NCBI RefSeq assembly: GCF_947493595.1
Contig: NZ_CANLRL010000009.1
Location: forward strand, 1 to 64,000
From: an uncultured Shimia sp.
Lineage (GTDB): Bacteria; Pseudomonadota; Alphaproteobacteria; Rhodobacterales; Rhodobacteraceae
Length of the DNA stretch: 64,000 bases
Direction: 5' to 3'
Shown: positions 3,695 to 32,296 of the stretch, in pieces
Position numbering within the stretch: position 1 is the first letter of the stretch
How the letters are laid out: each line of letters begins with the position of its first letter
Position numbers and translations under genes: made by a program
The notes under the pieces: generated by a model
Told to the model about the DNA's origin: nothing
Seen by the model: only the letters and a program-made list of their open reading frames with translations
The model's database searches: none

Positions 3695-4687
3695 ATGAAG
3701 ATCGTTGGAAAGATGTCTCGTCGGGTGCTGCTCGCATCCGCATTGGGGGCAAGCGTTCTTGCGTCCGCAGGAATTGCCGCTGCCGAGGCTGTGAAAGTCG
3801 CGGCCATTTACACGCTGCCGGTGGAGCAACAGTGGATCAGCCGCATCCATTTGGCGCTGAATACAGCTGCCGAGCGTGGCGACATTGAGTATGTGTTTTC
3901 CGAAAACGTGGCCAACACAGACTATGAACGCGTGATGCGCGAATATGCCGAACAGGGCATGCAATTGATTGTGGGCGAAGTTTTTGGCCTGGAGCGCGCG
4001 GCGCGCAAAGTGGCCGGGGATTATCCGGAAACCGCCTTCCTCATGGGCTCCTCATTCGGGGCGGTGGCGCCAAACTTCTCAGTGTTTGACAACTGGATTC
4101 ACGAACCGTCCTATCTGTCGGGCATGGTGGCCGGTAAGGCAACTGAGTCCAACGTGATCGGCATGGTGGGTGGCTACGCCATTCCAGAGGTGAACCGCCT
4201 GATGCATGCCTTCATGGACGGTGCACGCGAGGTGAACCCGGATGTGAAGTTCATCGTCAACTTCATCGACAGCTGGTATGATCCACCCAAAGCCAAGGAA
4301 AGCGCCTTTGCGATGATGGATGCGGGCGCGGACATCATGTACGCGGAGCGCTTTGGCGTGTCTGACGCCGCTGTGGAGCGGGGCGTGAAAGCCATAGGCA
4401 ACGTGATCGACACCTCCGGCGACTACCCGGGCACCGTTCTGGCGTCCGCCCTGTGGCACATGGAAGCTACCATCGACAAAGCCATCGGAAGCGTCGCCAG
4501 CGGCACTTTTGAGGCGGCGGATTACGGGCAGTTCAGCTTCATGCAGTATGGCGGCGGCTCGCTGGTGCTGGATGACAAACTGGTGCCAGCCGATGTGGTA
4601 GATGCCGTGCGCGCCAAAGAGGCCGACATCATGGGCGGCATGTTCCGTGTGAACGTGAACGACGACCGTCCGGTCTCTGACAACTGA
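3695..4687 (+). CDS. BMP-family ABC transporter substrate-binding protein
   Basis: Periplasmic binding protein of 330 residues in the basic membrane protein (BMP/PnrA) family, which typically binds nucleosides or related purine/pyrimidine compounds. The N terminus is a signal peptide (SRRVLLASALGASVLASAG, then an Ala-rich cleavage region near residue 30). No lipobox Cys is present, so it should be a soluble periplasmic protein. Family-typical segments are the SSFGAVAPNFSVFDNWIHE region, the YLSGMVAG helix and the GMVGG strand. A GGGGG tract 7 nt before ATG 3695 supports this start. It is the first gene of an importer operon; a hairpin separates it from the ATPase gene. The true substrate is inferred only from the neighbouring amidohydrolase. 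Confidence 0.93.
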   Translation: MKIVGKMSRRVLLASALGASVLASAGIAAAEAVKVAAIYTLPVEQQWISRIHLALNTAAERGDIEYVFSENVANTDYERVMREYAEQGMQLIVGEVFGLERAARKVAGDYPETAFLMGSSFGAVAPNFSVFDNWIHEPSYLSGMVAGKATESNVIGMVGGYAIPEVNRLMHAFMDGAREVNPDVKFIVNFIDSWYDPPKAKESAFAMMDAGADIMYAERFGVSDAAVERGVKAIGNVIDTSGDYPGTVLASALWHMEATIDKAIGSVASGTFEAADYGQFSFMQYGGGSLVLDDKLVPADVVDAVRAKEADIMGGMFRVNVNDDRPVSDN

Positions 4688-4696
4688 TTTGGGGGG

Positions 4697-4723
4697 AGGC
4701 CGATCCTCGGGGTCGGCCTTTTC
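4697..4723 (+). terminator. intercistronic hairpin with T tract
   Basis: AGGCCGA (4697-4703) and TCGGCCT (4713-4719) form a perfect 7-bp stem with a 9-nt loop, followed by TTTT. It lies between the binding-protein gene and the ATPase gene. It may act as a partial terminator or 3'-end stabiliser so that binding protein is made in excess over the membrane components. Confidence 0.7.
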
Positions 4724-4728
4724 ACATT

Positions 4729-6246
4729 GTGACACAGAATAAAGTCTTATCTTTGAACGGGCTGACCAAGCGGTTTGGCTCCGTTGTGGCAAATAACGCG
4801 GTGGATCTGACCTTGCACCGCGGCGAGGTGCTGGCGCTGTTGGGAGAAAACGGCGCTGGCAAAACCACGTTGATGAACATGCTTTTTGGGCACTACATGC
4901 CCGATGAGGGCACTGTGGATGTGGCCGACGACGCAGGCGCCTTGCACCCTCTTATGCTGGGCCATCCACAAGCGGCTTTGGCCGCCGGTATTGGCATGGT
5001 CCACCAGCACTTCACGCTGGCCGAAAACCTCAATGCACTTGATAACATCGTGCTGGGCTCCGAGCCTTTGCGGATGCTCAAACGCGACCGCGTAGGTGCC
5101 CGCGCCAAGATCGCGCGGATCATGGAACACACTGGCCTTCAGGCACAGCTTGACGTGCCCGTGGGCAAGATGAGCGTGGGCGAACGCCAGCGGGTCGAAA
5201 TCCTCAAAGCGCTTTATCGCGATGTGCGCATTCTGGTGTTGGATGAACCCACCGCCGTTCTGACGCCGCAAGAAGCGGACACGCTGTTTGACAGCATTGT
5301 CGCCATGACCCGCGAAGGGTTGTCGGTGATTTTCATCTCCCACAAGCTGCGCGAAGTTCTGGCCTTTTCCCACCGCATCGCTGTGTTGCGCCATGGCGAA
5401 AAGGTGGGTGAGATTGCCACTGATGAGGCGGACGAACGTGTCATTGCGCGAATGATGGTTGGGGCCGACACGCCTGAAACCCCACGCAGCGAGTTGCCGC
5501 CGGGTGCGCCGGTGCTGCAGTTGAAAAACCTGTCGGTGGCAGGCCGCTCCAAGCGGGACTCGCTTGAGGATGTCACCCTCACAGTGCACCAACATGAAAT
5601 TCTTGGCATCGCCGGCGTCTCTGGCAATGGCCAAAGCGCGCTGGCGGGGGTGATCTCCGGTTTGAACCAGCCCACCGGCGGGACGCTGACGGTGGACGAA
5701 ACGGCCATCGCTAATCCAACCCCGCGCAAGATGATCCACGCCGGGGTCGGCCGTATCCCGGAAGACCGCCACCATGACGGCATCGTCGGCGCGATGAGCG
5801 TGGCCGAAAACATGGTTATCGAACGGCTGGATGAGCCGGGGGTACAGGCCAATGGCCTGCTGAAACGCGATGCCATTCGCGCCAACGCCGATCGGCTGGC
5901 AGCCGACTATGACGTGCGCGGCCCCGGCGTGACCGCCCGTGCGCGGCTTCTGTCCGGCGGCAACATCCAAAAACTGATCCTGGCGCGGGTGTTTGAGCAA
6001 AACCCCAAGCTGATCCTCGCCAACCAACCGACGCGCGGCCTCGACATGGGGGCTGCCGCCGAAGTGGCTCGCCGCTTGCTGGAGGCCCGCACTCGTGGCG
6101 CAGGCATCGTGCTGATTTCCGAAGACCTCGATGAGGTGTTGAGCCTCGCGGACCGCATCATGGTGATCCACGACGGCGCCCTAATCGAAGCAAATAGCCG
6201 CGATCGCGAACACATTGGCCTGATGATGGCGGGAGAACTGACATGA
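4729..6246 (+). CDS. BMP-type (nucleoside) ABC transporter, duplicated ATPase
   Basis: A 505-residue cytoplasmic ATPase with two ABC domains in one chain, as in the YufO/NupO family. Domain 1 has a complete Walker A (GENGAGKTT, near residue 40), signature MSVGERQR and Walker B (ILVLDEPTA). Domain 2 has a degenerate Walker A (GVSGNGQSA) and signature LSGGNIQK, a usual asymmetry for this family, so only one site may hydrolyse ATP efficiently. The start is GTG at 4729. Its end overlaps the first permease gene by 4 nt (ATGA), indicating coupled translation. Confidence 0.93.
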   Translation: MTQNKVLSLNGLTKRFGSVVANNAVDLTLHRGEVLALLGENGAGKTTLMNMLFGHYMPDEGTVDVADDAGALHPLMLGHPQAALAAGIGMVHQHFTLAENLNALDNIVLGSEPLRMLKRDRVGARAKIARIMEHTGLQAQLDVPVGKMSVGERQRVEILKALYRDVRILVLDEPTAVLTPQEADTLFDSIVAMTREGLSVIFISHKLREVLAFSHRIAVLRHGEKVGEIATDEADERVIARMMVGADTPETPRSELPPGAPVLQLKNLSVAGRSKRDSLEDVTLTVHQHEILGIAGVSGNGQSALAGVISGLNQPTGGTLTVDETAIANPTPRKMIHAGVGRIPEDRHHDGIVGAMSVAENMVIERLDEPGVQANGLLKRDAIRANADRLAADYDVRGPGVTARARLLSGGNIQKLILARVFEQNPKLILANQPTRGLDMGAAAEVARRLLEARTRGAGIVLISEDLDEVLSLADRIMVIHDGALIEANSRDREHIGLMMAGELT

Positions 6247-11363: not shown

Positions 11364-12119
11364 TTACGTCTCTGCGACCAAGCCGCGCCACATCGCGAGC
11401 AGATCTTCCCGCGTGGATGCCTCGCAGATCGCCAGCAGCAAGTTCCCTTGCCAACTGACTTCGACGGCAAATATCTGCTCTGTCATGGAAAACAGTGCCA
11501 AGTGGGGGCGATCTTGCCGGAACTGGTCCACTTGCCCCACAAAATTCCCACGGGCTTTGGCCATATGGTGCAACGCCCGCAGCGCCGCATCCGGGCCAGC
11601 TTCCACACCGACCTCCGCCTCAAGCCAGGCAACAGACAGCGCCTTCACATCTGCAATAATGGCAGGCGTGACCGTATTCTCGTGCGGCGCTTCCAGCGTC
11701 TCCAACAATGCCTGACAGGACCATGATCGGGCCGAGCTTGGCATCTCAGGCGTCCGCGCGGCAATGTCAAACCGCAGGCTTTTGGCGCCATCCAGCGCCC
11801 GCTCAATCGCTGCTACGACGTCTTGCGCTTCGGCATTACTGGCATCCAGAGAAATCCCCTCTAGCGCCACCAAGTGCCGGTTGCTGATGGTCAGCAGCAG
11901 CGCGGCGTCGCAGTCCTGCGCGGACACAGCAATTGTTCGCGCCAGCACCACCTCGCCAATTTCGCTAATGACGGCCAGCACGGCCTCCGCCGCAGAATGA
12001 AAGTTGCGCCACGTGCCATAGGCCGGCGTCATCGGCGCTGTCAGCCGCCGCATAGCTGCGCGTGCGTCCGCCACCTCGGTGTCTGAGGCGGTAAGGATAT
12101 CTTTGCGCGGCGCGATCAC
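11364..12119 (-). CDS. uncharacterised protein, last gene of kinase/GTPase operon
   Basis: A 251-residue soluble protein with no recognised catalytic motif, signal peptide or membrane helix. GTG 12119 is chosen because it overlaps the stop of the preceding gene (GTGA), and the open frame upstream of it is antisense-like in composition. Two alpha/beta stretches are visible: one about residues 55-120 (AEAVLAVISEIGEVVLART, then DAALLLTISNRHLVAL) and one at the C terminus (FSMTEQIFAVEVSWQGN, then LLAICEASTREDLLAMW). Both look like helix-strand-strand-helix units of the Roadblock/LC7 or profilin-like kind. That reading is inference from pattern only. Its position argues for a role with the three upstream GTPases. 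Confidence 0.7.
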   Translation of the reverse strand: MIAPRKDILTASDTEVADARAAMRRLTAPMTPAYGTWRNFHSAAEAVLAVISEIGEVVLARTIAVSAQDCDAALLLTISNRHLVALEGISLDASNAEAQDVVAAIERALDGAKSLRFDIAARTPEMPSSARSWSCQALLETLEAPHENTVTPAIIADVKALSVAWLEAEVGVEAGPDAALRALHHMAKARGNFVGQVDQFRQDRPHLALFSMTEQIFAVEVSWQGNLLLAICEASTREDLLAMWRGLVAET

Positions 12120-12478
12120 GCGTCCCCCGCCATTTTGGTCAGCGCGGCTATGCCTTTGGGAACAACAAGTTGGGGATCGCAGTCCAAGGGACAGAGCAGA
12201 CAAATGAAATCCACACGGCCCTGCGCCCGGACATAGATCCGCATGTCTTGCGCGGTCAGCACAATGCTGTCTTGAGTGGTGGCCTTTGGATCCCCTAAGC
12301 TCTCGGTCGCCACAAAACACCGTGCCGCTTCGGCACAGAGGTTATCCAGCCTTTCCCGGGGCATCGCCTTGTCATGGGACGCTTTGAGGATCAGATGCGC
12401 GGCCACATCCCCGAATGCTGCCACCTGACAGCCGGGAATGTCGGATCGTAGGGCATCTAGGCAGTCTGCAACCGTCAC
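12116..12478 (-). CDS. small Roadblock/LC7-like protein (tentative)
   Basis: A 120-residue soluble protein. The layout is an N-terminal helix ending in an IPG turn (CLDALRSDIPG), a strand, a central helix (RERLDNLCAEAARCFV), a paired strand (DSIVLTAQDMRIYVRAQG), a hydrophobic strand (FICLLCP) and a C-terminal helix (GIAALTKMAG). This order matches the Roadblock/LC7 fold, known from MglB and CvnB, which regulate small GTPases. No sequence search could be run, so the fold call is inference. Start is GTG 12478 with GGAGG 10 nt upstream. The 62-nt gap to the preceding GTPase gene is the largest in the operon. Confidence 0.6.
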   Translation of the reverse strand: MTVADCLDALRSDIPGCQVAAFGDVAAHLILKASHDKAMPRERLDNLCAEAARCFVATESLGDPKATTQDSIVLTAQDMRIYVRAQGRVDFICLLCPLDCDPQLVVPKGIAALTKMAGDA

Positions 12479-12540
12479 AGATCGCTGTCCTCCAACGTTA
12501 CGCGATCTCCACTGGCCTTCAACTTAGGCAAGAGATCACC

Positions 12541-13476
12541 TCAAATATCACCACCAACGCCAAGGGCGTGCAGCGGCATGTCTAGTAACTCTTCACTCGA
12601 AGGTCGCACCGGATTGGGTGCCTTTGGGCGCACCCGTCGGGGCATCACTTTTGGCCCATCATTTTTGGCGCAGGACACCTCAGGTGATGCGGCCGGTGCC
12701 GTTATTGCTTCGGGCAAATCTGCTTCTGTATCTTGTACGGCGGGCGCGTTAACATCATCTTGCGCAGCGGCCATTGCCTCGGCCTCTCCCACTAGCATTG
12801 CCACCATGCGTTCAATCAAAGCCGCCCCGCCGCTGTTGCGCCAGGCGGTTTCATCCATGCCTGCGTTGATCGCCTCCAGCGTAGCAATCGGGACAATTGC
12901 ATCAAATGCGTCGCCAGCCTCCGCCTCAAGCCGCGCCAAAACCCGCGCGCGGTCCCGCTCGGAGCGCAGCTTGTCAAACTGCGTCACAACCAAGTGGTTT
13001 GGCCCTTTGATCTGTTGGGACACCTGCTCCCATAATGCTGCCTCGGACTGTCGCCAGGCCTGCGTTGCGTGGGTGCACCAGATCACGCAATCCACCTCAT
13101 CCATCAGCGATAACCAGGTCTCATGCTTCAGGTTAGGGTCGGAAATCCCGGGAATATCAATCAGGTCGCACAGGTTGAGAATGTCGGAATCCATCGAAAA
13201 CCGGATCAATTCACAGCCCGCCATCGGAGCCTCACAAATATCTGCCCCGTCAAACGCCGCCTCCGAGCCGTCGTCACGCACCAAGGTTGCCCCGCGCGCG
13301 CCATGGCTCACCCAGACCGGCGGCACCCGCGTGGCGGTAATGCGCACCGGCATTGGGTCACAGCCCAACAAAAGGTTCATCAACGTGCTTTTGCCGGCGC
13401 TGAACTCCCCCATTAGGGCAATGCGCGGTTTGCGCAATGCCTGCTGGGCCACAATTTCTACATCCTGAGCGGTCAT
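12541..13476 (-). CDS. dynamin-like P-loop GTPase (third of three)
   Basis: A 311-residue predicted GTPase with the bacterial dynamin-like signature: P loop GEFSAGKST (residues 23-31), a switch-1 Thr in TATRVPP, switch 2 DIPG (107-110) and a TQFDKL base-recognition motif (165-170). After about residue 225 it turns into a low-complexity acidic/proline tail. There is no obvious stalk or paddle, so it is shorter than a full dynamin. It overlaps the preceding GTPase gene by 4 nt (ATGA), suggesting stoichiometric synthesis. The family call is strong; the cellular role is unknown. Confidence 0.85.
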   Translation of the reverse strand: MTAQDVEIVAQQALRKPRIALMGEFSAGKSTLMNLLLGCDPMPVRITATRVPPVWVSHGARGATLVRDDGSEAAFDGADICEAPMAGCELIRFSMDSDILNLCDLIDIPGISDPNLKHETWLSLMDEVDCVIWCTHATQAWRQSEAALWEQVSQQIKGPNHLVVTQFDKLRSERDRARVLARLEAEAGDAFDAIVPIATLEAINAGMDETAWRNSGGAALIERMVAMLVGEAEAMAAAQDDVNAPAVQDTEADLPEAITAPAASPEVSCAKNDGPKVMPRRVRPKAPNPVRPSSEELLDMPLHALGVGGDI

Positions 13477-15554
13477 TGGGAGCTCCCTCCTGCCTCAACC
13501 ATGGTACTTTGCAATAGTGCGTCAAACTGCGTGGTCAGCGCGTCCAGCTGGGCGCGCTTCTGACCTTCCTCGCCGCTTTGGAATAGCTTCTCGATCTCCG
13601 CGCTTTGCGGCGCGGCGCTGATGTCCTGCATGATTTCGTCATGCTGCTCAAAGAACTCGCGCAAACAGCTGGTTGCGAGCGCCCGAACCTGCTCGGTCTG
13701 AATGCCTTTGGACTGCAACATGAAATCCTCGGTTTCCCGCGCGATCAGGTTCTGGAAGCGCTTGGAAAATGCGTTGAAGCCGCGAATGCGGTTCCACCAG
13801 GAAATCCACCAGCCGTCGTTGAAATCCAGCGCGATGGTCTGTCCCAGCGCAATCGGGGCGGGCAGGTCGGGTAGGGCAGGGGGGGCCATCTGGATACCCT
13901 CCACCGCGTGCCCGTAGGTGTTGGCATAGAGCATCGCCACATCCGTCATCGCCGCCTCAAACCGCGCCTGCGCCAAGTTGCGCACCCGCGCGCCAAAGGC
14001 CGAATAGGCGGTGCGCAGCAACATGCGCAGCCCCACCGGATCGTAGTCCCAGACAATGTCTTTGCCGTAGTTCTCTAAATGCGTCAGCAACGACCGCAAC
14101 GCCCGGTCAATGAACTTCGCATGCGCCCGATCCGCGCGGGTGTGATAGTCTGCTATGGCAGCATCCAACTCTTCTGCAAAGGTCTGATGGTGAAACGCCG
14201 CGATGCTGCGAAATTCTTTGAGGGCATCATAGGTCGACAGGTTAGCGTTGCCGCCTTGTTTGGCTCCGATCTGCACCATGCCTGCCGCCAACTCGCTGGT
14301 TGCAACCGTCAGCGCGGCGTTGGTGGTCTTTTGCAAAAGCTGCTGCCCTTGCTCTTCGATCACCCGCTCCGACAGCGCACGGTACAAGTGTCCCATACCG
14401 GACAGCTCCCACACCATTTCATGCGGTTGCATTTGTCCATGTTGCTGGTCCAGCGCAATTTCTGCCCAATCAAACAAGGCCTTGCTGGCCACCTCCGGCA
14501 TGCCTTCAATATTACCGCTCAGCGCTTTGTTGGCCCAATAGGCGCTGCCAAACAGGATCTCGGCATCCTCCGGCCCTTGTTTGTTGTGTAATGTCTGGCG
14601 GATGCTGGCTTCAATCTCGGGCACCTGATTGGCCGGGTCCGGCAGTTCATCAATCCGGTTCACAAAGATCAGCACATTGCGCGACTTCAGGTTCGAAATC
14701 AGCCGGATCAGCCCCATGTCCACCGAGGTCAGCGCCTGACCGGCTGACAGAACCACGACACAGATCTTACTGCTGCGCAGCGCCTGAATGGTCACCTGTT
14801 CGCGCATCATGAACGTGTCGTTCACACCGGGCGTGTCTCGCAGGCACAGCGGCACCGGCACGGTGTCACAGTTCAGCGTTAGATCCGCCGAGGACAGAAT
14901 ATCCGCAAACCGTCCTTGCTCGCTGTCCGCCTCGCCAAAATCGTCGCCCAGAACGATGTAGCGCTCCAACAGGTTCTTGTCGAAATAGCCGTAGTTGTGG
15001 ATCTCCCCCAGCAACAGATCAAATTTCTTGCCCAGCCGTTTCTGCGCTTTGGCGCGCACCTTCTCGATCTGTTCGCCAATCTTGGCCAACTCGCTTTCCG
15101 CACCGGCGCGGCTGGCCATCTCGCCAATCCGCCCGCCTTGGTTCAACAACCGGTCCCAATTGTCCTCGGTCATAAACTGAAAGCTGGCCCCGGTTTCCGC
15201 CGGACGCGACGCCGGTTTCAGGTGCAGCGAGGTAACCACAGAGGTCCAGGGGTTCACATCTGACGGCAGCAAATCCGCCCAGCCAGCCATCGCGTTCACC
15301 AAAGTGGTTTTGCCAGATTTCACCTGCCCAAGCACGGTGATGGTGGGCTCAAACCCCGCCACATCCTTGCGCAGGCGCTCCACGGTTTTGGCGGAATTTT
15401 TGCCAGCCACCTGTGACAGTTGCGCCAACAGATGATCCAACTCGTCCAGATCCTGCCCCAGTTGTCCCAGACCTTCCAACCCTGTGCGCAGGTTGGAAAT
15501 CCGCCGCGATGTGCGCACCTCGGGCTTGCTCTCTTGCCGAATTTGCATGTTCAT
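13473..15554 (-). CDS. large dynamin-family GTPase (second of three)
   Basis: A 693-residue protein with an N-terminal helical region and a dynamin-type GTPase domain: GQVKSGKTT (76-84), a switch-1 Thr in NPWTSVVTS (101-109), DTPG near residue 240 and an NRID motif near 300. A long helical portion follows, typical of bacterial dynamin-like proteins, with an aromatic/amphipathic patch (WWISWWNRIRGF) near residue 590 that could touch membrane. These proteins usually remodel or tether membranes in a nucleotide-dependent way. It overlaps both neighbours by 4 nt. ATG 15554 is used; ATG 15548 is two codons inside. Confidence 0.85.
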   Translation of the reverse strand: MNMQIRQESKPEVRTSRRISNLRTGLEGLGQLGQDLDELDHLLAQLSQVAGKNSAKTVERLRKDVAGFEPTITVLGQVKSGKTTLVNAMAGWADLLPSDVNPWTSVVTSLHLKPASRPAETGASFQFMTEDNWDRLLNQGGRIGEMASRAGAESELAKIGEQIEKVRAKAQKRLGKKFDLLLGEIHNYGYFDKNLLERYIVLGDDFGEADSEQGRFADILSSADLTLNCDTVPVPLCLRDTPGVNDTFMMREQVTIQALRSSKICVVVLSAGQALTSVDMGLIRLISNLKSRNVLIFVNRIDELPDPANQVPEIEASIRQTLHNKQGPEDAEILFGSAYWANKALSGNIEGMPEVASKALFDWAEIALDQQHGQMQPHEMVWELSGMGHLYRALSERVIEEQGQQLLQKTTNAALTVATSELAAGMVQIGAKQGGNANLSTYDALKEFRSIAAFHHQTFAEELDAAIADYHTRADRAHAKFIDRALRSLLTHLENYGKDIVWDYDPVGLRMLLRTAYSAFGARVRNLAQARFEAAMTDVAMLYANTYGHAVEGIQMAPPALPDLPAPIALGQTIALDFNDGWWISWWNRIRGFNAFSKRFQNLIARETEDFMLQSKGIQTEQVRALATSCLREFFEQHDEIMQDISAAPQSAEIEKLFQSGEEGQKRAQLDALTTQFDALLQSTMVEAGGSSQ

Positions 15555-16753
15555 GCCTGTGCCCTCGCGCCTATTTCTTTGCGGAGTTGTAACAACAGGA
15601 TGATCCCGTCCTCCGCCGCCGTCGGGCTCTGCTCGACCTGCAACAACATCAACGTGTCTTCCCCGTCGCGGGCGTCATCCAGCAAATCCGTCGCCGCCGG
15701 ATCCTGTCCTGCTTCTGCGTCCAACACCGAGGTCAAAGCCCGCACAGTGTCGGCACAGCGCGACAACAACCCATCCGCATTGGGGATTTTTCCCGCATCT
15801 AAGTCGGACAACATCTCCTGCGCCGCCGTTTGCAGCAGCGTTTGCAACTGATCCATCAGCGCGGTTTCGCTGCCCAAAGTTGGCTTGCTCGACACAGGTG
15901 TTTGCTGCGGGGCAGGGGGCACGTCGTCGCCCGCGGCTTCCACAACTTCTCCTAACTGCGCCAACAGCAACCGCGCCTGGTCCAAGTCCGCCGCCCGCCC
16001 CTTGCGCGCCTGCGCCTCAACCGCCTCGACCAATTCTTGGCCACCAGATGCTGCCCACAACTCCTGTTGCGCCTCACCGCCCGCCCGCGCCTTGAGCGCG
16101 TGCAACGTGGCCACCGGATGCAGTCCCAGAAACGCCTCCACCGCGCTCTCTTCCAGCGCGGCCAACTGGTCCGCCAACCCGCCGGTCATGATATGCCGGT
16201 CCGCCTTGGTCAGGGCCAGAAAACTGTGGTCCTTAATGGCATCCGGCACCGTGTCCCAAATGGCGTGTTCCGAAGCATCAAACCCTTCGCTGCACCAGAC
16301 AAACACTTGGCCTTCCTGCAAGGCCGTTTGCATCAACGCCTGTTGCGCCGCGGGATCATTGGGTTGCATCACTTCCACAAACGCCTGTGTTTTCAGGCTG
16401 TCGATTGGCACCTCATATGTAACCCGCGCCGCGCCTCGCGTCCGATCGTCCAGCGCATGAACTGTTACTGTTTCCGTCGCCCCATCCGCCCAGGTCACTG
16501 TGGCCTGCGTACTTGCGCCGTAGACCACCTCAACAATCGGTACGTCTTGCGGCGGTTGGATCACATCGCCACCCAGCATCATATTGATCAGGCTGGTTTT
16601 CCCGCTGCCCGAACGGCCCAGAACCACCACACGCACCGCCTCAGTCAGGTGGGTAAGGATCTCTTCGCCAAAGGCCTTTTGACGCCGTGGCACATGTCCG
16701 CTCGCCAATGCGGAGTGCAATTGCCCAACGATCTGCTCTGGTTGTGTCTGCAT
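15551..16753 (-). CDS. P-loop GTPase-like protein (first of three)
   Basis: A 400-residue protein with a clear P loop, GRSGSGKTS (46-54), and a base-recognition motif TKAD (182-185). A standard DxxG switch 2 is not visible; the equivalent region reads MQPNDP, so hydrolysis may be altered. The C-terminal half is acidic and helical, without a membrane segment. ATG 16753 is chosen because it joins the phosphatase stop as TGATG and an earlier in-frame start would lie deep inside the phosphatase gene. It is probably a partner of the following dynamin-like GTPase. Confidence 0.75.
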   Translation of the reverse strand: MQTQPEQIVGQLHSALASGHVPRRQKAFGEEILTHLTEAVRVVVLGRSGSGKTSLINMMLGGDVIQPPQDVPIVEVVYGASTQATVTWADGATETVTVHALDDRTRGAARVTYEVPIDSLKTQAFVEVMQPNDPAAQQALMQTALQEGQVFVWCSEGFDASEHAIWDTVPDAIKDHSFLALTKADRHIMTGGLADQLAALEESAVEAFLGLHPVATLHALKARAGGEAQQELWAASGGQELVEAVEAQARKGRAADLDQARLLLAQLGEVVEAAGDDVPPAPQQTPVSSKPTLGSETALMDQLQTLLQTAAQEMLSDLDAGKIPNADGLLSRCADTVRALTSVLDAEAGQDPAATDLLDDARDGEDTLMLLQVEQSPTAAEDGIILLLQLRKEIGARAQA

Positions 16754-17694
16754 CACTTCCCGACCTTTCGCGTTAGGCTGACAATGGTGCGCACCGTGCC
16801 GCGATGCGCCCGTCGATCGATTTGCACGACCTCTCCGGTGGCGCGCGGGCGCGCCGGTTGCGGCGACGGTGCTGGTTTGGCCTCTTGTGCCTCTGCCCGA
16901 TGCACCGCCTTGATCACGCACAGCGACAGGTTGTCCTGCTCCGGACAGCCCGCCGCGCGCACGGCTGCAAGCAACGCCGCGCTAATCTCCTGACCAGTGG
17001 CTTTTGCACTCTCTTGCAAAACCTCCGCCACCGTTTCGTCAGCCAAGGTGTGAAGCCCGTCACTGGCCGCCAGAACAATATCCCCAGCTTGCAACGTCAT
17101 CGGCTCGGCGCGGCAATCCACCTTGGCAATCTCCGCCCCCGCCAAAACCGAGATCAGCGCGCTGCGATCCGGATGGTTCTGCGCCTCATCGGCATCCATC
17201 AACCCGCGCGCCTGCATCAAATCAATCTGCGCCGCATAGGAGTGGTCTTCGTTCAACCGATACAGCCGGCCCGCGCGCCACAGATAAAGCGGCGAGTCCC
17301 CGACAGAGACCCAATAGAGCCGCGCGCCAAAAATCACCGGCGCCACCACCGTGGCCCCCATGCCCGACGCATCTGAGTTCTGCCGCTCATACAGCTGGAT
17401 ACAGCTATTGGCCGCTGCCACGGCCTCCTGCAAAACGGGCCCGATGTTGCGCTCCATTTCCTCCGGCGCGCCGCTCAACAGTTTCAACTCACTGAATAAC
17501 TCTGTCGCCACGATACCGCTGGCCACGTCTCCGCAGGAATGCCCGCCCATGCCGTCCGACAGCACCGCAAATCCCATCGGCGCCCCCAGCGGGAAGTCGG
17601 CCACCACGGTGTCCTCCTGCCTCTCCCGCGCGCCCAGAGAGAGCGCGGTGGCCACATCAAAGCTCAGCTCAGCCAAGGTCGCTGCGCCCCGCAT
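16753..17694 (-). CDS. PP2C-family Ser/Thr protein phosphatase
   Basis: A 313-residue metal-dependent phosphatase of the PPM/PP2C family. Metal-binding and catalytic motifs are present: RQEDTVVAD near residue 28, SDGMGGH near 46-52, VSVGDSPLYL, AASDGLHTL, and a final DN in CPEQDNLSL. No membrane segment is seen. It is expected to reverse the phosphorylation set by the operon's kinase. ATG 17694 is preferred: GGGGTGA lies just upstream and it overlaps the FHA gene by only 26 nt; a start at 17757 is possible. The kinase/FHA/PP2C order recalls type VI secretion post-translational control, but no such genes are near. Confidence 0.9.
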   Translation of the reverse strand: MRGAATLAELSFDVATALSLGARERQEDTVVADFPLGAPMGFAVLSDGMGGHSCGDVASGIVATELFSELKLLSGAPEEMERNIGPVLQEAVAAANSCIQLYERQNSDASGMGATVVAPVIFGARLYWVSVGDSPLYLWRAGRLYRLNEDHSYAAQIDLMQARGLMDADEAQNHPDRSALISVLAGAEIAKVDCRAEPMTLQAGDIVLAASDGLHTLADETVAEVLQESAKATGQEISAALLAAVRAAGCPEQDNLSLCVIKAVHRAEAQEAKPAPSPQPARPRATGEVVQIDRRAHRGTVRTIVSLTRKVGK

Positions 17695-18712
17695 CCGCGT
17701 CACCCCAGGCAAAGTCCTCGCCACACAGGGCCACAAACCGCAATGTAGTTTCGCCAATTCGAATAAGGCTGTTGCTGTCCAAATCCTCTGTGCTCAACAC
17801 CGGGCGGCCATTCAGCCGCACAAGATTGGCTTTGCCGCCATGGCCAAAGAAAAACCGCCGCTGCTCACCGTCAAACGCAATCGCCGCATGGTTCTCACGC
17901 GAAATCGTCGTGTCGCCAAAATCCAACCGCACGGTCTGGCCTTCCCCACGCCCGATCTGGGTCAATCCGTCATGCAGCGAAAACGATGCGCCTTTGCCGG
18001 GGCCTTCCACGACCACCAGCCAGCCGACAGGGAACTGCGCCTGCGCCGACACCGGCGCTTCGCGGGTTTGCGCCATGGGATCATGCGCCTGACTGGCGGG
18101 CGCACTAAACCCGAGCAACCGGGTTTTCACGCGCCCTTTGGATCCACGCCCCGCCGCTGGCTTAGCGGCCGCCATATTGGCCTGCAACGCCGCCAGATCC
18201 ACTTCCTGCTCCGCAGGGACAGGTTCCACTTGCGCTGGCTCTGGCTGTGTTGGCGGTGGCGCAACGGGTTCTACCACAGGGGGCGGGGCCGCGACTTGTG
18301 GGGCGGGCGCCATTTCCGGCTCCAGCATCCGCGGCGCTTCAAATGGCTGTTCTACCAGTGCGTCTTGCGGCGCCTCCTCTGCAAACAGATTGCCAAACGG
18401 ATCGCTTTGGATCTCTGTTTGCGGCATTTCCAACTCGACAGGGGTTTCTACAGGAGCCGCGGTCAAAGCTGCAGAAATCGCGGACAAATCCACTGGCGCC
18501 TCTGTAGGTTCCGGTGGTTGCGGGGCCACAAACGCGGCGGCGTCTGGCGCAGGCTGGGCGGGTTCTGCCTCGATATGCACCGTTGGTGTCGGCTCTTCGG
18601 CCACATCCGCACGGTCCTGCTCCCGCAATCGCAACGGATAGCGCAACGCTGTGCTGTCGGCCTGACCAGCCGATTGGGATTTCTCAGCAATAATATCGCG
18701 AATGAACCGCAT
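17669..18712 (-). CDS. FHA-domain protein
   Basis: A 347-residue protein. About 190 N-terminal residues are Pro/Glu/Ala-rich and presumably disordered. A C-terminal forkhead-associated domain (about 225-330) keeps the phosphothreonine-binding residues Arg255 (IGRGEG), Ser271 and His275 (ISRENH) and Asn301 (RLNGRPV). It should bind a phosphothreonine made by the adjacent kinase. ATG 18712 is preferred for the AAGGGA 7 nt upstream; ATG 18727 would overlap the kinase stop as ATGA and add five residues. Confidence 0.88.
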   Translation of the reverse strand: MRFIRDIIAEKSQSAGQADSTALRYPLRLREQDRADVAEEPTPTVHIEAEPAQPAPDAAAFVAPQPPEPTEAPVDLSAISAALTAAPVETPVELEMPQTEIQSDPFGNLFAEEAPQDALVEQPFEAPRMLEPEMAPAPQVAAPPPVVEPVAPPPTQPEPAQVEPVPAEQEVDLAALQANMAAAKPAAGRGSKGRVKTRLLGFSAPASQAHDPMAQTREAPVSAQAQFPVGWLVVVEGPGKGASFSLHDGLTQIGRGEGQTVRLDFGDTTISRENHAAIAFDGEQRRFFFGHGGKANLVRLNGRPVLSTEDLDSNSLIRIGETTLRFVALCGEDFAWGDADAGRSDLG

Positions 18713-18723
18713 GGGATGTCCCT

Positions 18724-20037
18724 TCATATTAGAAATAGACGGGTGTTGGGGTTTGACCGGTCACCCTTCAACCGGTCACGGAATTTGTGGAGTAGGCTTT
18801 CGCCATCCGGCTTGGGGGGCGCAGGCGCTTCCGGCCCCTCCGAGCTGGGCCGGCGCAGGAAATCGCCCTGCTGCAACAGCCGCGTTGGCGTTCTGGCACG
18901 CGCCTTGCACAGGCGATCCTGCTCCTTGAGATAGGCCTCAACGTCGTCAATCGGATCGCCAAAAATATCGACGTACTGCTTGGGTGGGGGCGGCACCTGC
19001 CGCGCCTCTTCCAGTACTTTGAGTGGCTTTTGCAACGCCTTCGGCAACCCCGGTGTCAGCACCTTGTTGGTCTTGCTCACAAGCTCTTCGATCACACCAA
19101 TCACCGCCGGATCAAACACAGCGAGCGGCTTGGGAATGGGCCCATCCATTACCGCCAGCCAGTCATCTGCACAGCGCAACCGGTCTTTGGGTTCCAAGGC
19201 CAGCGCCCGATCCGTGGCCAGTTTGAGGCGGATATCAATTTCAAAATCCGTCGACTCCAGCGGCACATAGGGGTCCATCCGCCCTGCATCCACGGTTTCC
19301 AGCCGTGTCTGCGCGTCCGGTGGCGCCTCGCCGGTAAAGACCAAATGACACAGCGCTCCCATCGAATACAGATCGCTATAGGCGCCTTGCACCCCGTCGG
19401 CGCAATAGAACTCTGGCGGCGAATAGCCGTCTTTCACCGCCAACATGCGCTGGCTTTGCCCGCCCTCGGCTTCCCCGGAGGAATAAGCCGCGCCAAAGTC
19501 AATCAGCGTCACGTCGCCATTGGCGCTCAGGATCAGGTTGTCCGGCGCCACATCCCGGTGCAGCACGCCCCGGTCATGTAAATAGCTCAGCGCGTCCAAA
19601 ACCTGCCGCAGCAGCTTGTTCACCAAAGTCGGCGTCAGCCGCCCCGGCGCGTGGTCGACCAGTTCATGCAGGTCCACACCTTCGACAAAATCCATCGCCG
19701 TATAGGCCGTGCCGTTTTCGGCAAACGTCTGATGTACACCGACGATGCGCGGGTGGTCCAATTCGGCCAACTGATGTGCCTCGGCCTGAAACTGCTCCAA
19801 AACCGACGCAAAAAACGGCGCGCTTTCTGGCCCGGACGGCACCACCTGCGCACCCACTCGGTGGCAAATCTGCTCGGGAAAACACTCTTTGATTACCACC
19901 ACACGGTTTAGACTGTCGCGCGCGAGGTAGGTCAGGCCAAATCCCCCTTGGCCCAAACTGCGCGTGATCCGGTACTGCCCGCGCAAAAGCTCGGTGCCCG
20001 CAGGCAGCACAGTCACGTTTTCCTCAGCGCAATCCAT
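18724..20037 (-). CDS. Hanks-type Ser/Thr protein kinase
   Basis: A 437-residue cytoplasmic kinase, first gene of the operon. It has the Gly-rich loop LGQGGFG (28-34), ATP-anchoring Lys50, catalytic loop HRDVAPDN (160-167) and DFG (180-182). The residue two after the catalytic Asp is Ala where Lys is usual; this variant occurs in other bacterial kinases. No transmembrane helix or extracellular sensor follows the kinase domain; the last 150 residues are charged and helical, so the input signal is probably cytoplasmic. AGGAAG lies 8 nt before ATG 20037. Eight genes follow almost without gaps. Confidence 0.9.
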   Translation of the reverse strand: MDCAEENVTVLPAGTELLRGQYRITRSLGQGGFGLTYLARDSLNRVVVIKECFPEQICHRVGAQVVPSGPESAPFFASVLEQFQAEAHQLAELDHPRIVGVHQTFAENGTAYTAMDFVEGVDLHELVDHAPGRLTPTLVNKLLRQVLDALSYLHDRGVLHRDVAPDNLILSANGDVTLIDFGAAYSSGEAEGGQSQRMLAVKDGYSPPEFYCADGVQGAYSDLYSMGALCHLVFTGEAPPDAQTRLETVDAGRMDPYVPLESTDFEIDIRLKLATDRALALEPKDRLRCADDWLAVMDGPIPKPLAVFDPAVIGVIEELVSKTNKVLTPGLPKALQKPLKVLEEARQVPPPPKQYVDIFGDPIDDVEAYLKEQDRLCKARARTPTRLLQQGDFLRRPSSEGPEAPAPPKPDGESLLHKFRDRLKGDRSNPNTRLFLI

Positions 20038-20575: not shown

Positions 20576-23293
20576 TTGAAACGCTGGATTTTGAGATTTT
20601 TCACCGGGCTGATTGTGCTCACCGTGGCGCTGGGCGCTCTGATCTGGGCTGCGCTGGCGACGCCGCTGTTCCGTGGCTTTCGTAAAGACTTTGTCGCGGA
20701 TCTTTTAACCGAACAAATCGGCCAGCCTTTCCTGATTGACGGCGACGTGCGCGTTGTCCTGGCAGGCACCACCAAAGTGCACGTCTCCGGAGCCAGCATA
20801 CCCAGCGAGAACATTACCGACATAAATCTGGCTCGGCTGGACCTGTTGGAATGGGAATTGGATCTGCCCGCCTTGCTGGACCGCCGCATCGACATAGACA
20901 ATCTGACCATTGACGGGCTGCAGGTGAACATGATCACCAAGGCCGATGGCACCACCAGTTGGACCAAGGTTGCGCGGGAAGACGCGGCAGAAGCGTCAGA
21001 AACCACATCAACTGTAGACAGCGCCGCAACGGACGATCTGCCCGATCCCTCGATCATCACCTTCCTCAGTGACCGCACAGTATCTTTCACCAACATTGGT
21101 CTTGCCTCGATTGATGAGAAAAGCGGTTTTGAGTTTATTTTTGCGCTGGAGAAAATCCTGTTGGAGCAGCTTCAGGACGGCCAACTCGCCTCCGTCACCG
21201 GCGCTGGCACGCTCAACGGCGAGGCTTTCACTTGGGACGGCAAATTTCCCGACAGCGCGCCGTTCACCAATCAACTGGAGTTTGGCGACATCTCGCTGAG
21301 CTACAATGGCGCCCGACTGCCCGACAGCGCGCAAGGCTATACCGCGCGTCTCGAGCTCACTACCGGTCAAATTGGTGATGTATTTGAAGTGCTTGGCCTC
21401 GCCCGCAGCCTTGAAGGCGTGGGCACTCTGTCGGTGGACGTCACCAGCGCGCCGCAACTGCTGACCCTGGAAAACCTACAAACCACACTGGATCTGAGCA
21501 AAGGCCAAAACGTGACCGTGACCGGCGATGTTGACAACCTTTTCACCCGCGCTGGATTTGACTTCCAAATGGACGCCCGCCTGCATCCGGAAGGGCAGCC
21601 GCCTGCAGATGCCAACAGCCTGAAAGACCTTAAACTCACCGAAATTCAGGCGCATGTGGTCAACACCGGGGAGCGGTTGACCTTTGAGGAATTGCTCATC
21701 CAGACCAACGCCTTTGAGCAGGGCCTCGACCGCGTAGGCCCCATCTCCATCGGCAATGTCTATCGATCAGAGCAGAAAACCCTAGGCTTACGCGACATCG
21801 CGCTTCAGGCAGGGCCAGAGGACGCGCCCTATCTGACCGCCGAAGGGGATATTGGCGATGTCTTCAACCTCGCCTTTGTGGATCTGACCGGCCATCTGCA
21901 AGGGTCCGCCGAGCTCTTGCTTAAAAACCTGCCCCCCGAGGAGGTCGCGAAATTTGGCGGTGTGGAAGCGGACTTTGTCATCAACGACAACGACGGCGAG
22001 TTGAGCCTGCGTGAACTCAAGGCCCAAACCGTCGACACCGACCTCTGGACATTAAACGCAGATGTGGTGGTCGCCAGCATTGAAGAACTCGCAGGCATGA
22101 AGCTGGACCTGCAATTTGGTGTTGCAGACACCGCACCTTTCCTGACTGCGCTGGGCCTGAAACCCGTGGGGGTGTCGACGCTCGCGACCGGCTTTACCCT
22201 TGAGGGGGCGGCCAAAGAAGCCAAACTTGGCTTTGATTTTCAGGCGGACGGCACGGATCTCACCTCGGACCTTACTTTCGATCTCAGCAAGGAGATCAAT
22301 GTGATCCGCGGGGCGATCCTCAGCAACCGTATGCGCCTTGTGGACCTGCGTGAAGGCGGCAAAATCCTCGTGCAACTCAATAAACGCGCCAAGGCCGCCA
22401 AAACCGCGAAGGAGGCCAAAGCCCAAGAGGCGGATGATGGCCGCCCACCGATCCAGCCTCTGGTGCTAGAAAAGGAAAGCAACGTCTTTAGCCTCAAACG
22501 CATCCTCACCGAAACGGATCTGGCGATCACTTTGGAGCTGGCTGAATTTGTCGGTGACGCCGGTACCTCCTCGATGAGCAGCGAGCTGATCGCCAAGGAG
22601 GGCCAAATTCAAGCAGGCCCCATCGAGCTCTACTACGGTCCTGGTTTTTTCAAGGTCACCGCCTCCATGGATGCCATTGAAAACCCTGATCGCGCGCGCA
22701 TTCAGGGCAGCACCAGCGGCTGGGATTTTGGCGAAATTCTCAAGGCGCTAGAGGTTGGTATTCCCGCGCGGGGCAAACTGTCAGCCAATGTCGATGTGAC
22801 CGGCAATATCACCTCCGGCAAAGCCTTCATGAACTCCATGGCCGGGAGCGCCTCGCTCAACATGCGCGACGGGGCCATCGCCACCAGCCTGTTGGAACTT
22901 GCCGGTCTCGGCATTTTCCCCTGGCTGTTTTCGCAGGAGTTTGCCGCAGGTCAAACCGAGATTGTCTGCGTAAAAGCCCCGGTGAAAATCAACGCGGGCA
23001 ATGTCACCTTCACGCAGGTGGTGGCCGAAACCCGCAGCGTGCAAATGGTGGTGCGCGGCATGGTGGATTGGGTGAAAGATGCCATCGCCATCCGGGCTGA
23101 ACCGCGTCGCGTCGGCCAACCCTTGGCGCGCAGCGCCTGGCCGTTTGAGGTCAATGGTAAATTGTCCGATCCGCAGTTTAAACTGCTGGTTGGTGGCTCG
23201 CGCAGCCGTCGTGCCGATGGGGCGGACAAAATGCCCGCAAACCGCAAACCTTGCACCCCCGACATCTTCCAACTTGAACAAGCTTCGGAGTGA
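20576..23293 (+). CDS. AsmA-family protein
   Basis: A 905-residue envelope protein. One N-terminal membrane anchor (FTGLIVLTVALGALIWAALA) is followed by a large periplasmic beta-rich region and the conserved AsmA C-terminal part (GKLSANVDVTGN, then SLNMRDGAIATSLLELAGLG). AsmA-like proteins are repeating-beta-groove (chorein-like) lipid carriers that influence outer-membrane lipid supply. The start is TTG 20576 with AAAGGAC about 6 nt upstream. The next gene begins 3 nt after its stop. Confidence 0.88.
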   Translation: MKRWILRFFTGLIVLTVALGALIWAALATPLFRGFRKDFVADLLTEQIGQPFLIDGDVRVVLAGTTKVHVSGASIPSENITDINLARLDLLEWELDLPALLDRRIDIDNLTIDGLQVNMITKADGTTSWTKVAREDAAEASETTSTVDSAATDDLPDPSIITFLSDRTVSFTNIGLASIDEKSGFEFIFALEKILLEQLQDGQLASVTGAGTLNGEAFTWDGKFPDSAPFTNQLEFGDISLSYNGARLPDSAQGYTARLELTTGQIGDVFEVLGLARSLEGVGTLSVDVTSAPQLLTLENLQTTLDLSKGQNVTVTGDVDNLFTRAGFDFQMDARLHPEGQPPADANSLKDLKLTEIQAHVVNTGERLTFEELLIQTNAFEQGLDRVGPISIGNVYRSEQKTLGLRDIALQAGPEDAPYLTAEGDIGDVFNLAFVDLTGHLQGSAELLLKNLPPEEVAKFGGVEADFVINDNDGELSLRELKAQTVDTDLWTLNADVVVASIEELAGMKLDLQFGVADTAPFLTALGLKPVGVSTLATGFTLEGAAKEAKLGFDFQADGTDLTSDLTFDLSKEINVIRGAILSNRMRLVDLREGGKILVQLNKRAKAAKTAKEAKAQEADDGRPPIQPLVLEKESNVFSLKRILTETDLAITLELAEFVGDAGTSSMSSELIAKEGQIQAGPIELYYGPGFFKVTASMDAIENPDRARIQGSTSGWDFGEILKALEVGIPARGKLSANVDVTGNITSGKAFMNSMAGSASLNMRDGAIATSLLELAGLGIFPWLFSQEFAAGQTEIVCVKAPVKINAGNVTFTQVVAETRSVQMVVRGMVDWVKDAIAIRAEPRRVGQPLARSAWPFEVNGKLSDPQFKLLVGGSRSRRADGADKMPANRKPCTPDIFQLEQASE

Positions 23294-23296
23294 CCT

Positions 23297-23785
23297 ATGA
23301 CCCGCCTCTGGCTTTGCCTCTCTCTCCTGCTGCCGTCAGCCACTTTCGCGCAAACCCATCCGGAGTTTGCCACCGTGGGCGATTGGACCGTGCGGACCAA
23401 CCCGGCCAATGGAAACGGCTGCTATATGGAAAAAACCTTCGATAGCGGCACATTGGTGCAAATTGGCGTGGTGCCCGACCAAAACGGCGCTTTCTTTGCC
23501 GCTTACAACGCCGCCTTTGACGGGGTGGAGGAGGGCGCAGAAGGCAGCGTTCTCTTCGACTTCGGTGACAGCCGCTTTCAAGGTACGGTCACAGGTGCAT
23601 TCCAAAATGGCCTGCCGGGTGGCTATGCGTTTTTTGACAATCCGGAATTTGCCAAGGAGTTTGGCAAACGCACCAAAGTCCTGGTGCAAGGCGGGTCCGG
23701 AACGTCAGAGGAGATTGACCTCACCGGTAGCATGAAAGGGCTGAGCAGTATCCAGGCCTGTCGGGATGAGAACGAAAGCGACTGA
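23297..23785 (+). CDS. small secreted protein of unknown function
   Basis: A 162-residue protein with a signal peptide (LWLCLSLLLPSATFAQ, cleavage near residue 19). The mature part begins with VGDWTV and has a Cys near each end (GCYM, IQACRDE) that could form one disulfide. The WTV start and beta-rich pattern recall IalB-like periplasmic proteins, but similarity is too weak to name it. It follows the AsmA-family gene by 3 nt and is probably co-transcribed. Confidence 0.75.
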   Translation: MTRLWLCLSLLLPSATFAQTHPEFATVGDWTVRTNPANGNGCYMEKTFDSGTLVQIGVVPDQNGAFFAAYNAAFDGVEEGAEGSVLFDFGDSRFQGTVTGAFQNGLPGGYAFFDNPEFAKEFGKRTKVLVQGGSGTSEEIDLTGSMKGLSSIQACRDENESD

Positions 23786-24938: not shown

Positions 24939-25058
24939 GATCCACATGGGTTGCTTGTGTCCTGTGCTTTGATTTTTGCCACCTTCCTGCTGATCACTGC
25001 CGTGGTCACGCTGCGTCAGAACGGTCCAAGGGCGGACAAACGGGAGGTTCGCGGATGA
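24939..25058 (+). other. in-frame 3' remainder of the MFS gene
   Basis: Reading straight on from the TAG, the same frame gives 39 sense codons and then TGA at 25056. It encodes a hydrophobic helix (LLVSCALIFATFLLITAVV) and a basic tail (RQNGPRADKREVRG). This is what the twelfth helix and cytoplasmic tail of an MFS protein should look like. The TGA overlaps the ATG of the LuxR-type gene as ATGA, the usual coupling in this genome. Confidence 0.8.
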
Positions 25059-25804
25059 AGCTAGATCTGATTGGCCAGTTGGCAGGCGACCTGAAGCAGG
25101 CAAAGGATGGCGACGCGTTGTGGCAGTGCTGCTTGACGGCATTGGGGACGCTGGGCGTGGACGGTGTCGGCTATGGCGTTATTCCGATGATCGGGCTGGC
25201 AACCCCCGGTAAAATGACCGAGGCCAGCTTTTTCCGTCATTCTTACGTTGCCGAATGGGAAGAGGCGGTGGGCAAAGATCGCCTGCTGGACGAGGACATC
25301 AGCACCGAACTGTTATTGCGCGGTCAGGAAGAGATTTTTTGGAATGATGATCCTGACACCTACGACGCGACACCGGCAAACCGGCGGTTGCATCAGTTCG
25401 AGAATGATTTGGGTATGATTTGGGGGCAAACCCTTCTGTTGTCTCATTATTCTCGGAATCCGGTGTCGTCCGGCATTGGTCTGCATATCGGGCACGTCAC
25501 ATCAGATGCTGAGTTTTTTGCCTATTGGAAAGAACATGAAACATCGCTGCGCGCGGTGGCTGAAATGCTCAACAGCGGCATGCTGGAACAGCACAAGGAT
25601 GGCGTGGTGCGCCTGTCCGGGCGGGAGAAGGATTACATCTACTGGTCCGCTTTGGGGTTGGATCGGGTGCAGATTGCCGATCGCCTGTGCATCAGCGCAA
25701 ACACTTTGAACAAGCCGATTGCCAGCGCCAAAGCCAAACTCAAGGCCCGTAACACCTCGCAAGCGGTGGCCAAGGCGGTGCTTCTGGGGTTGGTGGATCT
25801 TTGA
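25055..25804 (+). CDS. LuxR-type regulator with divergent autoinducer-binding domain
   Basis: A 249-residue regulator. The N-terminal part (about 20-165) is an autoinducer-binding fold; the C terminus is a LuxR helix-turn-helix (LSGREKDYIYWSALGLDRVQ, then NTSQAVAKAVLLGLV). Aligned to TraR, Trp68, Asp81 and Trp96 correspond to W57, D70 and W85, but V72 replaces Y61 and I82 replaces P71. The ligand may therefore not be a standard acyl-homoserine lactone. No luxI-type synthase is in the window, so it is a LuxR solo here. ATG 25055 overlaps the full-length MFS frame by 4 nt. Confidence 0.87.
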   Translation: MKLDLIGQLAGDLKQAKDGDALWQCCLTALGTLGVDGVGYGVIPMIGLATPGKMTEASFFRHSYVAEWEEAVGKDRLLDEDISTELLLRGQEEIFWNDDPDTYDATPANRRLHQFENDLGMIWGQTLLLSHYSRNPVSSGIGLHIGHVTSDAEFFAYWKEHETSLRAVAEMLNSGMLEQHKDGVVRLSGREKDYIYWSALGLDRVQIADRLCISANTLNKPIASAKAKLKARNTSQAVAKAVLLGLVDL

Positions 25805-29327: not shown

Positions 29328-29548
29328 TCCACTCACTCCTTAGTGTCCTTGGTCGTAGGAGGAGGGGCTTAATGAGGTCCTAAAATGCACTTTTTGCGAG
29401 AGTTTCATGAATGTGAAATTTGCCTCGGATTGGAGTGGGATTTTGTTTTAATGCAAAGGGTTAGGGTTAAGCTTTGGTAAGCGATGGCGGGCAGGGTGGC
29501 TAAGTTTTTCCGCTGGGGTGAGTTTTTGACGGAAATGAAACGCGCGGC

Positions 29549-29621: not shown

Positions 29622-30107
29622 ATGTCCTCCGATTCGCCTACCTGCGCACGCCTGAGCCGGTCTTTGACCGGGCTGTTGGCTGTTGTCGCGTTGGTGGTGC
29701 AAATGATGGTGCCACAGATGGCCCATGCCAATGCAAGTGGCGATCAAAGTGGCGATTGGATCGAGATTTGTGCGGATGCCGGACCGGTGATGGTGCGGTT
29801 GCGGGAAGATGGCTCCGTTGAAAAGCGCGCGCCGCAGTCTCCGAGCCACGGCGGCTGCCCCAAATGTCTGACCTGCGTGACGTGCGCCGGTGTCTCCGGA
29901 ATTGATGCCGGCGTTGTTGCTTTGGGCGCAGCTGATGGCGTTGCTATGTCAGTGGTGGTGTGCAAGGCGGACTCTGCTGTGTTTGTCAGCAAGGCGTGGG
30001 AGCGCCCGATGACCCGCGGGCCGCCGTGTGGGCCCCAATATAAAAATGAAATGGCCCGCGCGGGCCATGTGATGACAGCGAACCCGACAGAAGGAGGTGC
30101 GCTGTGA
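29622..30107 (+). CDS. nosC: NosC-like small cysteine-rich protein
   Basis: A 161-residue protein with an N-terminal hydrophobic segment (LTGLLAVVALVVQMMVPQMAHA) that may be a signal peptide or anchor. It has a CxxCxxCxxC motif (CPKCLTCVTC) near residue 86. A CxxCxxC protein named NosC precedes nosR in Paracoccus nosCRZDFYLX clusters, and position and motif fit. Its role is unknown; metal binding (copper or Fe-S) is plausible. It is first behind the FNR box, and its stop overlaps the GTG of nosR. Confidence 0.75.
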   Translation: MSSDSPTCARLSRSLTGLLAVVALVVQMMVPQMAHANASGDQSGDWIEICADAGPVMVRLREDGSVEKRAPQSPSHGGCPKCLTCVTCAGVSGIDAGVVALGAADGVAMSVVVCKADSAVFVSKAWERPMTRGPPCGPQYKNEMARAGHVMTANPTEGGAL

Positions 30108-32278: not shown

Positions 32279-32296
32279 ACCTTTAAGGAGGGAACA

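Follow-up and report, generated by a model that had tools for sequence, protein, structure and literature searches.

The DNA examined here is a 64,000-nt stretch from an uncultured Shimia sp. (contig NZ_CANLRL010000009.1, positions 1 to 64,000; hereafter the window), and its minus strand carries an eight-gene block that we assign as a bacterial dynamin-pair operon with a putative phospho-switch and a predicted Roadblock protein added. No described system with this gene combination was found in the literature searched, which leaves out most subscription papers. The block runs from window position 20037 to 11364 in the order STK, FHA, PP2C, gtpA, DLP, gtpC, smA and smB, the names gtpA, gtpC, smA, smB, DLP and STK being labels assigned in the present analysis. 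Consecutive genes overlap by 4 nt (STK/FHA, gtpA/DLP, DLP/gtpC and smA/smB) or 1 nt (PP2C/gtpA), FHA and PP2C overlap by approximately 26-35 nt, a range that reflects an uncertain PP2C start, and the sole gap among the seven junctions is one of 62 nt from gtpC to smA. This confirms an earlier note on the same DNA, which had described eight same-strand, mostly overlapping genes.

The block is real and conserved in order. A scan of genome contigs yielded 568 confirmed relatives, the best 80 of which were retained as named loci, all from Rhodobacteraceae; the exact eight-gene order was present in 68 of these 80 at a score floor of 20 bits and in 67 at a floor of 25 bits, where L158 loses smB. Nine of the 12 named loci without the exact order are cut by a contig end and three are not: smA was undetected in L153, a short-chain dehydrogenase-like gene (assigned by its cluster) occupies the PP2C position in L169, and gtpA, smA and smB were undetected in L173. 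A within-family set of 53 loci, consisting of 52 longer stretches (12 + 40) and the window and picked to span the identity range, not at random, contained the exact order in 29 loci and the kinase/FHA/PP2C set in 33. Among those 33, smA or smB was undetected only in L073, DLP is broken in two in L068, and L088 and L091 are rearranged. The named and within-family sets share genomes, and their counts are not additive. Retention of the exact order in both argues that the genes are associated by more than chance, and in the named loci it upholds the self-contained block that the earlier note had proposed; mapping relatives across the roseobacter family, a step suggested there, returned a conserved eight-gene block independent of tss genes.

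Of 394 family genomes, which as a rule represent one genus each, 103 had a DLP match, two of these matches being weak (E 4e-7 and 5e-4); in the window's genus, 9 of 25 genomes had one. In wider draws, for which scoring was limited to the top three candidates of each genome, DLP relatives of at least 450 bits turned up in 2 genomes of 385 from the class and 8 of 349 from the phylum, all belonging to the window's family, and the others reached at most 38 bits. The block was found at differing genomic sites, also on plasmids; 18 plasmid records match DLP, all of them non-mobilizable according to PLSDB, in which their annotation consists of generic gene names.

The dynamin pair comprises DLP, a dynamin-like protein of 693 residues (13473..15554, minus strand, as are all eight genes; Pfam Dynamin_N 2.8e-13), and gtpC, a dynamin-type GTPase of only 311 residues (12541..13476; Dynamin_N 9e-11), which lie side by side with a median gap of 7 nt across 118 loci. 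Motif conservation was assessed in 91 distinct loci carrying the six larger genes, identical DLPs having been removed. The G1, G3 and G4 motifs of DLP are each present in 91/91, and gtpC retains its P-loop (G1) in 91/91 and DxPG (G3) in 89/91. Comparison of a DLP profile with the PDB returned BDLP1 (1.3e-12), a Campylobacter DLP (8.4e-12) and, weakly, Fzo1. Four DLP tryptophans (W582, W583, W586 and W587), each kept in at least 90% of the loci, make up a WWxxWW patch (residues 582-587; 13794..13811) that is a candidate membrane contact. Adjacent dynamin genes within an operon are also described for Campylobacter Cj-DLP1/2, Nostoc BDLP and DynA/DynB (PMC6104087); unlike those pairs, the block has a short second GTPase and adds a kinase, an FHA protein, a PP2C phosphatase, a Roadblock protein and a pseudo-GTPase, and the word kinase is absent from the main text of that paper.

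The components of a phospho-switch occupy the first three positions. STK is a Ser/Thr protein kinase of 437 residues (18724..20037; Pfam Pkinase 5e-32) in which K50, H160-R161-D162 and D180-F181-G182 are each kept in at least 90% of the 91 loci; hydropathy over the sequence revealed no strongly hydrophobic stretch in the window STK. The PP2C phosphatase (16753..17703; approximately 316 residues, the start possibly some bases off) matches PP2C_2 at 1.8e-7 and the Stp1/IreP model at 2.5e-39, the latter yet below its own cut-off, and conserves four aspartates (D49, D68, D233 and D275) that we take to be metal-site residues. The Pkinase, PP2C_2 and both Dynamin_N matches are all above Pfam cut-offs. 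The FHA protein (17669..18727; 352 residues) has a long Pro-rich N-terminal part and a C-terminal FHA domain (approximately residues 233-335) that is seen via related models only, below their cut-offs (Yop-YscD_cpl 6e-5, FhaB_Rv0019c 7e-8). Its phosphothreonine-binding residues G259, R260, S276, R277 and H280 are invariant (91/91) and N306 is kept in 89/91, with the usual next residue, G307, being Gly in only 35/91. T202 (codon at 18122..18124), within the linker motif RVKTRLLGF, is Thr in 91/91 loci and is the sole Ser/Thr among residues 1-231 of the window FHA protein whose column holds more than 60% Ser/Thr; the Leu at position +3 is in keeping with an FHA ligand. T202 is a good candidate phospho-switch site, and the intact kinase, the phosphatase, the FHA phosphothreonine pocket and the one invariant threonine together suggest that the block is phospho-switched. 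The RVKTRLLGF motif was not seen in the type VI secretion stretches L291 and L293.

The two small genes, smA (12116..12478; 120 residues) and smB (11364..12119; 251 residues), match no family in a Pfam scan up to E 1, and comparison of their sequence profiles with the PDB gave no significant match for smA (best E 0.56) and none for smB. The AlphaFold2 model of smA (predicted local distance difference test [pLDDT] 87, predicted template modelling score [pTM] 0.79) has a predicted Roadblock/LC7 fold: Foldseek matched it to the Roadblock/LC7 protein 3kye (E 5.8e-7, TM 0.80), to MglB entries (5e-6 to 1e-4) and, at E ≤0.001, to 84 PDB chains in total, led by Streptomyces avermitilis Roadblock/LC7, archaeal Roadblocks and MglB. 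An analogy with GTPase-Roadblock pairs drawn previously from the sequence is, for smA, borne out by structure prediction. The model of smB, a two-part protein (pLDDT 86, pTM 0.53), is suggestive only of a distant Roadblock/longin-like protein; none of its Foldseek matches reached E ≤0.001, the best being chains of Mon1-Ccz1 (E 0.005), Ragulator and Roadblock proteins (E 0.005-0.15), and a few unrelated folds were also among the 50 listed.

The remaining gene, gtpA (15551..16753; 400 residues), encodes a degenerate dynamin-type GTPase, or pseudo-GTPase. It is a paralogue of gtpC (28% identity, E 1e-14), and its only Pfam match, Dynamin_N at 0.017, is below cut-off. The P-loop is kept in 83/91 loci, [NT]KxD in 31/91 and a DxPG anywhere between the P-loop and G4 in 5/91; two of these five belong to the rearranged loci L088 and L091, and in L024, L070 and L106 the match sits, by eye, just behind the P-loop and is not switch II. 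The protein can probably still bind nucleotide, switch II having been lost. The earlier note had counted three P-loop GTPases; with switch II gone in nearly every gtpA copy, the operon has two GTPases and a degenerate third, and the description as a triple-GTPase operon was overstated. Relatives of gtpA that lie behind a second DLP (L025, L090 and L091) or another DLP (L085 and L094) retain both the P-loop and DxPG. In a tree of 70 GTPase rows, rooted by midpoint only, these intact-switch relatives and the gtpA of the eight-gene blocks form one clade (support 100/99; 22 of 70 rows), the eight-gene gtpA copies occupying the tip of a ladder of branches (supports 86/89, 87/88, 96/91, 97/80 and 100/96). 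Because the clade includes intact-switch relatives adjoining a second DLP, we read gtpA as a descendant of the partner GTPase of a second dynamin that has since been lost. The second partner need not be a gtpA, as in kinase-less double pairs the GTPases that follow the second DLP fall into a clade of their own.

Rearranged loci bear on how the parts belong together. In L088, L091, L207 and L208, DLP-gtpC-smA-smB forms one half and STK/FHA/PP2C the other, the two being split, inverted or reordered; that each half stays intact supports two modules working together. The order in L091 is DLP-gtpC-smA-smB-DLP2-gtpA-STK-FHA-PP2C, and the annotated order in L208 (a Ruegeria plasmid) resembles it and is followed by a substrate-binding-type gene. 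In L207 (a Leisingera plasmid), DLP-gtpC and two hypothetical genes face PP2C, FHA, two substrate-binding-type genes and a longer kinase. The longer kinases of L207 and L208 contain a hydrophobic stretch (19-residue mean 1.9 and 2.1, vs 1.15 in the window STK), on which basis they may be membrane-bound sensors. The substrate-binding-type proteins beside these kinase/FHA/PP2C sets, which have LysM-like matches, lie at L207:19442-21786 (minus strand) and L208:24782-25821 (plus strand). In L089, a single open reading frame of 615 residues (3747-5594, minus strand) combines a gtpC-like Dynamin_N domain (6e-11) and a phosphatase domain of DSP type (2e-21) with an end that resembles smA (152 bits); as one case, this fusion hints at contact between GTPase and smA. 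Other within-family loci lack the kinase set, 7 of 53 having DLP-gtpC-DLP-gtpC and 5 of 53 a lone DLP-gtpC pair. Directly upstream of the kinase-less DLP pairs in most of L075-L082 is a conserved protein of 118-121 residues (e.g. L081:12313-12669, minus strand), Roadblock-like by eye, with a Robl_LC7 match at E 0.034 (below cut-off) in one of two tested. The double DLP pairs of L075, L078, L080 and L081 are followed by a conserved protein of 102-112 residues (GPWxxHDGKGCP...; e.g. L081:5069-5395, minus strand), which had no Pfam match for the one tested.

On balance, we lean towards the view that the block encodes one machine, a dynamin pair regulated by phosphorylation and by a Roadblock protein. 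In such a machine, full-length DLP and short gtpC would be the active GTPases of a heterotypic pair, most likely formed at a membrane surface through G-domain contacts. smA, perhaps with smB, would act on the nucleotide cycle or assembly of DLP/gtpC in the manner of MglB, a Roadblock protein that is both GTPase-activating protein and exchange factor for MglA (PMC6785124). The kinase and PP2C would together determine whether the FHA protein is phosphorylated, T202 being the most likely site; the FHA domain would then bind that phosphothreonine in itself or in a neighbouring molecule, or one on another component, and gtpA would be a likely adaptor from this switch to the dynamin pair. More specifically, and as a tentative proposal to which we give somewhat less than an even chance, the block may be a new membrane machine in which dynamin-pair assembly is gated by the Ser/Thr kinase/FHA/PP2C set at an invariant threonine, tuned by Roadblock proteins and coupled by a pseudo-GTPase derived from the partner of a lost second dynamin. 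The interpretation given in the earlier note, a phospho-switched GTPase machine perhaps for membrane remodelling or polarity, is supported in part: the block is self-contained and conserved and does not depend on tss genes, whereas the phospho-switch is a candidate and membrane remodelling or polarity a possible role.

Several observations weigh against a single phospho-regulated membrane machine. By the searches made here, the kinase, FHA and PP2C genes are all lacking from 18 of the 53 within-family loci, and 20 of the 53 lack the full set; DLP-gtpC pairs with none of these genes nearby are thus common, and the phospho-switch is not essential to the dynamin pair. The conservation of T202 could have a cause other than phosphorylation. 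Profile comparison of smA with the 118-residue upstream protein of kinase-less loci gave a probability of 3%, no firm link, and similarity between the smB and smA profiles was absent (hhalign probability 0.2%). TssC is found in 34 of the 103 DLP-bearing genomes and in 68 of the 291 others, a weakly positive trend towards type VI secretion (odds ratio 1.6, p 0.067). Finally, Escherichia coli RdcA is a soluble, dynamin-type signalling GTPase that activates a diguanylate cyclase, so membrane remodelling is not obligatory for such proteins (PMC6510439).

The last point leads to the strongest alternative, in which the dynamin pair serves as a G-protein module for signalling, in the manner of RdcA/RdcB or of actinobacterial conservons, and governs the output of its partner regulator without reshaping membranes. 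We consider this unlikely, if deserving of attention. E. coli RdcA/RdcB (YjdA/YjcZ) likewise joins a dynamin-type GTPase to a partner gene; unlike the block, that operon, as described, has no kinase, FHA, PP2C or Roadblock gene, and it acts on DgcE (PMC6510439). Conservons and the MglA/MglB polarity module resemble the block in placing a Roadblock/LC7 gene next to that of a GTPase and in receiving input from a kinase (PMC6785124, PMC4316618, PMC13343842), but the GTPases of the block are dynamin-type (Dynamin_N) and not small and Ras-like as are MglA and CvnD, its kinase is a Ser/Thr kinase (Pkinase) where CvnA is histidine-kinase-like, and FHA and PP2C are added. Some family members do have response regulator, histidine kinase and LuxI-type synthase genes next to the block, but these occur in only 8 of 61 DLP groups and do not adjoin the window block. 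DLP, moreover, has membrane-active bacterial dynamins as its best matches among solved structures and keeps its Trp-rich patch.

Anti-phage defence, with the kinase sensing infection and the dynamin pair acting on the membrane, appears improbable. The patchy presence of the block in family and genus, its plasmid copies and the match of STK to PADLOC kinases such as PD-T4-6 (1.6e-47) would suit such a role, but the last is a generic kinase-domain match, the GTPases give only weak LeoA/LeoBC and mads matches, the genes around the block in the window serve housekeeping, transport or nitrous oxide reduction (nos), and the block has been retained over long times in genus-level lineages. LeoABC resembles the block in having dynamin-like genes in series (PMC4159319). 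Its LeoA component is matched only weakly and partially, by DLP at 1e-8 and by gtpC at 1e-6. We know of no phospho-switch genes in LeoABC. A phage-borne module was rejected, DLP having no match in 50,697 phage records.

A control cassette for type VI secretion acting in trans is very improbable and was rejected as the main reading: kinase, phosphatase and FHA genes do occur together as PpkA/PppA/Fha and control type VI secretion (PMC3953482), and the window's genome carries a TssC gene on another contig, but the block has no tss genes, its FHA protein differs in architecture, having a C-terminal FHA domain and the invariant threonine in the linker, 69 of the 103 DLP-bearing genomes have no TssC match, so that such blocks do not always sit inside type VI systems, no TssC lies within 20 kb of DLP among the matches listed, and the type VI contig of the window's genome carries a separate kinase (32% identical, approximately 14 kb from TssC) as well as, judged by eye alone, an FHA protein of its own. 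The DLP and TssC searches each covered 394 genomes drawn by the same rule and were taken as one set, which shared genome labels support.

The recurrent two-component neighbourhood was assessed in 132 gene-called loci. A response-regulator family adjoins the block in 21 of them (L023, L056, L059, L060, L104-L107, L110, L114, L122, L125, L127, L131, L134, L137, L140, L144, L145, L148 and L154), or 18 without three duplicate genomes, with a histidine kinase in 21 and a LuxI-type synthase in 16 of the 132. The regulator has a C-terminal part lacking family assignment; some of the loci have two copies of it, and in many it is accompanied by the histidine kinase and LuxI-type synthase. These genes are found on both sides of the block and on both strands, in genera that include Seohaeicola, Roseovarius and Aestuariivita. 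A search with the regulator C-terminal part, the query being taken from beside a DLP, gave at least 80 bits in 16 of 355 genomes (a smaller draw than the 394), 11 of which carry DLP, 7 within 10 kb; Fisher values for this association rest on an estimated background. The recurrence could largely be explained by close kinship; as a lead only, it may hint at regulation tied to quorum sensing or to life on surfaces. The window has only a LuxR-type gene (25055-25804), 5 kb from the block and beside an RTX repeat protein with a Hint domain (26361-29336, minus strand), and a nitrous oxide reductase (nos) gene cluster lies at 29622-36353 (plus strand).

An AsmA-family gene and a 162-residue gene without a Pfam match (20576-23785, plus strand) are paired in genus genomes with or without the block. 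The block adjoins AsmA in 7 of 9 genus genomes with DLP, and eight block-less genus genomes have a close AsmA copy with no STK seen within 1.5 kb. AsmA was rejected as a functional partner, not being a conserved neighbour in the other genera examined. No clean empty site of the block was found among the block-less genus genomes, in two of which (G014 and G009) the nearest GntR relatives sit on a different contig.

Bacterial dynamins are widespread and their activation is mostly unknown; in this block, a dynamin pair is accompanied, in a set gene order, by a kinase, a phosphatase and a protein that reads phosphothreonine. Should the phospho- and Roadblock-regulated dynamin pair be the right reading, the block would make both the phospho-control of a dynamin and the action of a Roadblock protein on such a GTPase accessible to genetics, and gtpA, intact alongside a second dynamin and decayed where that is missing, would clearly exemplify the passage from GTPase to pseudo-enzyme inside one operon family. 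If the proposed membrane machine is true, it would be a bacterial parallel to the eukaryotic pairing of Roadblock/longin regulators with membrane GTPases.

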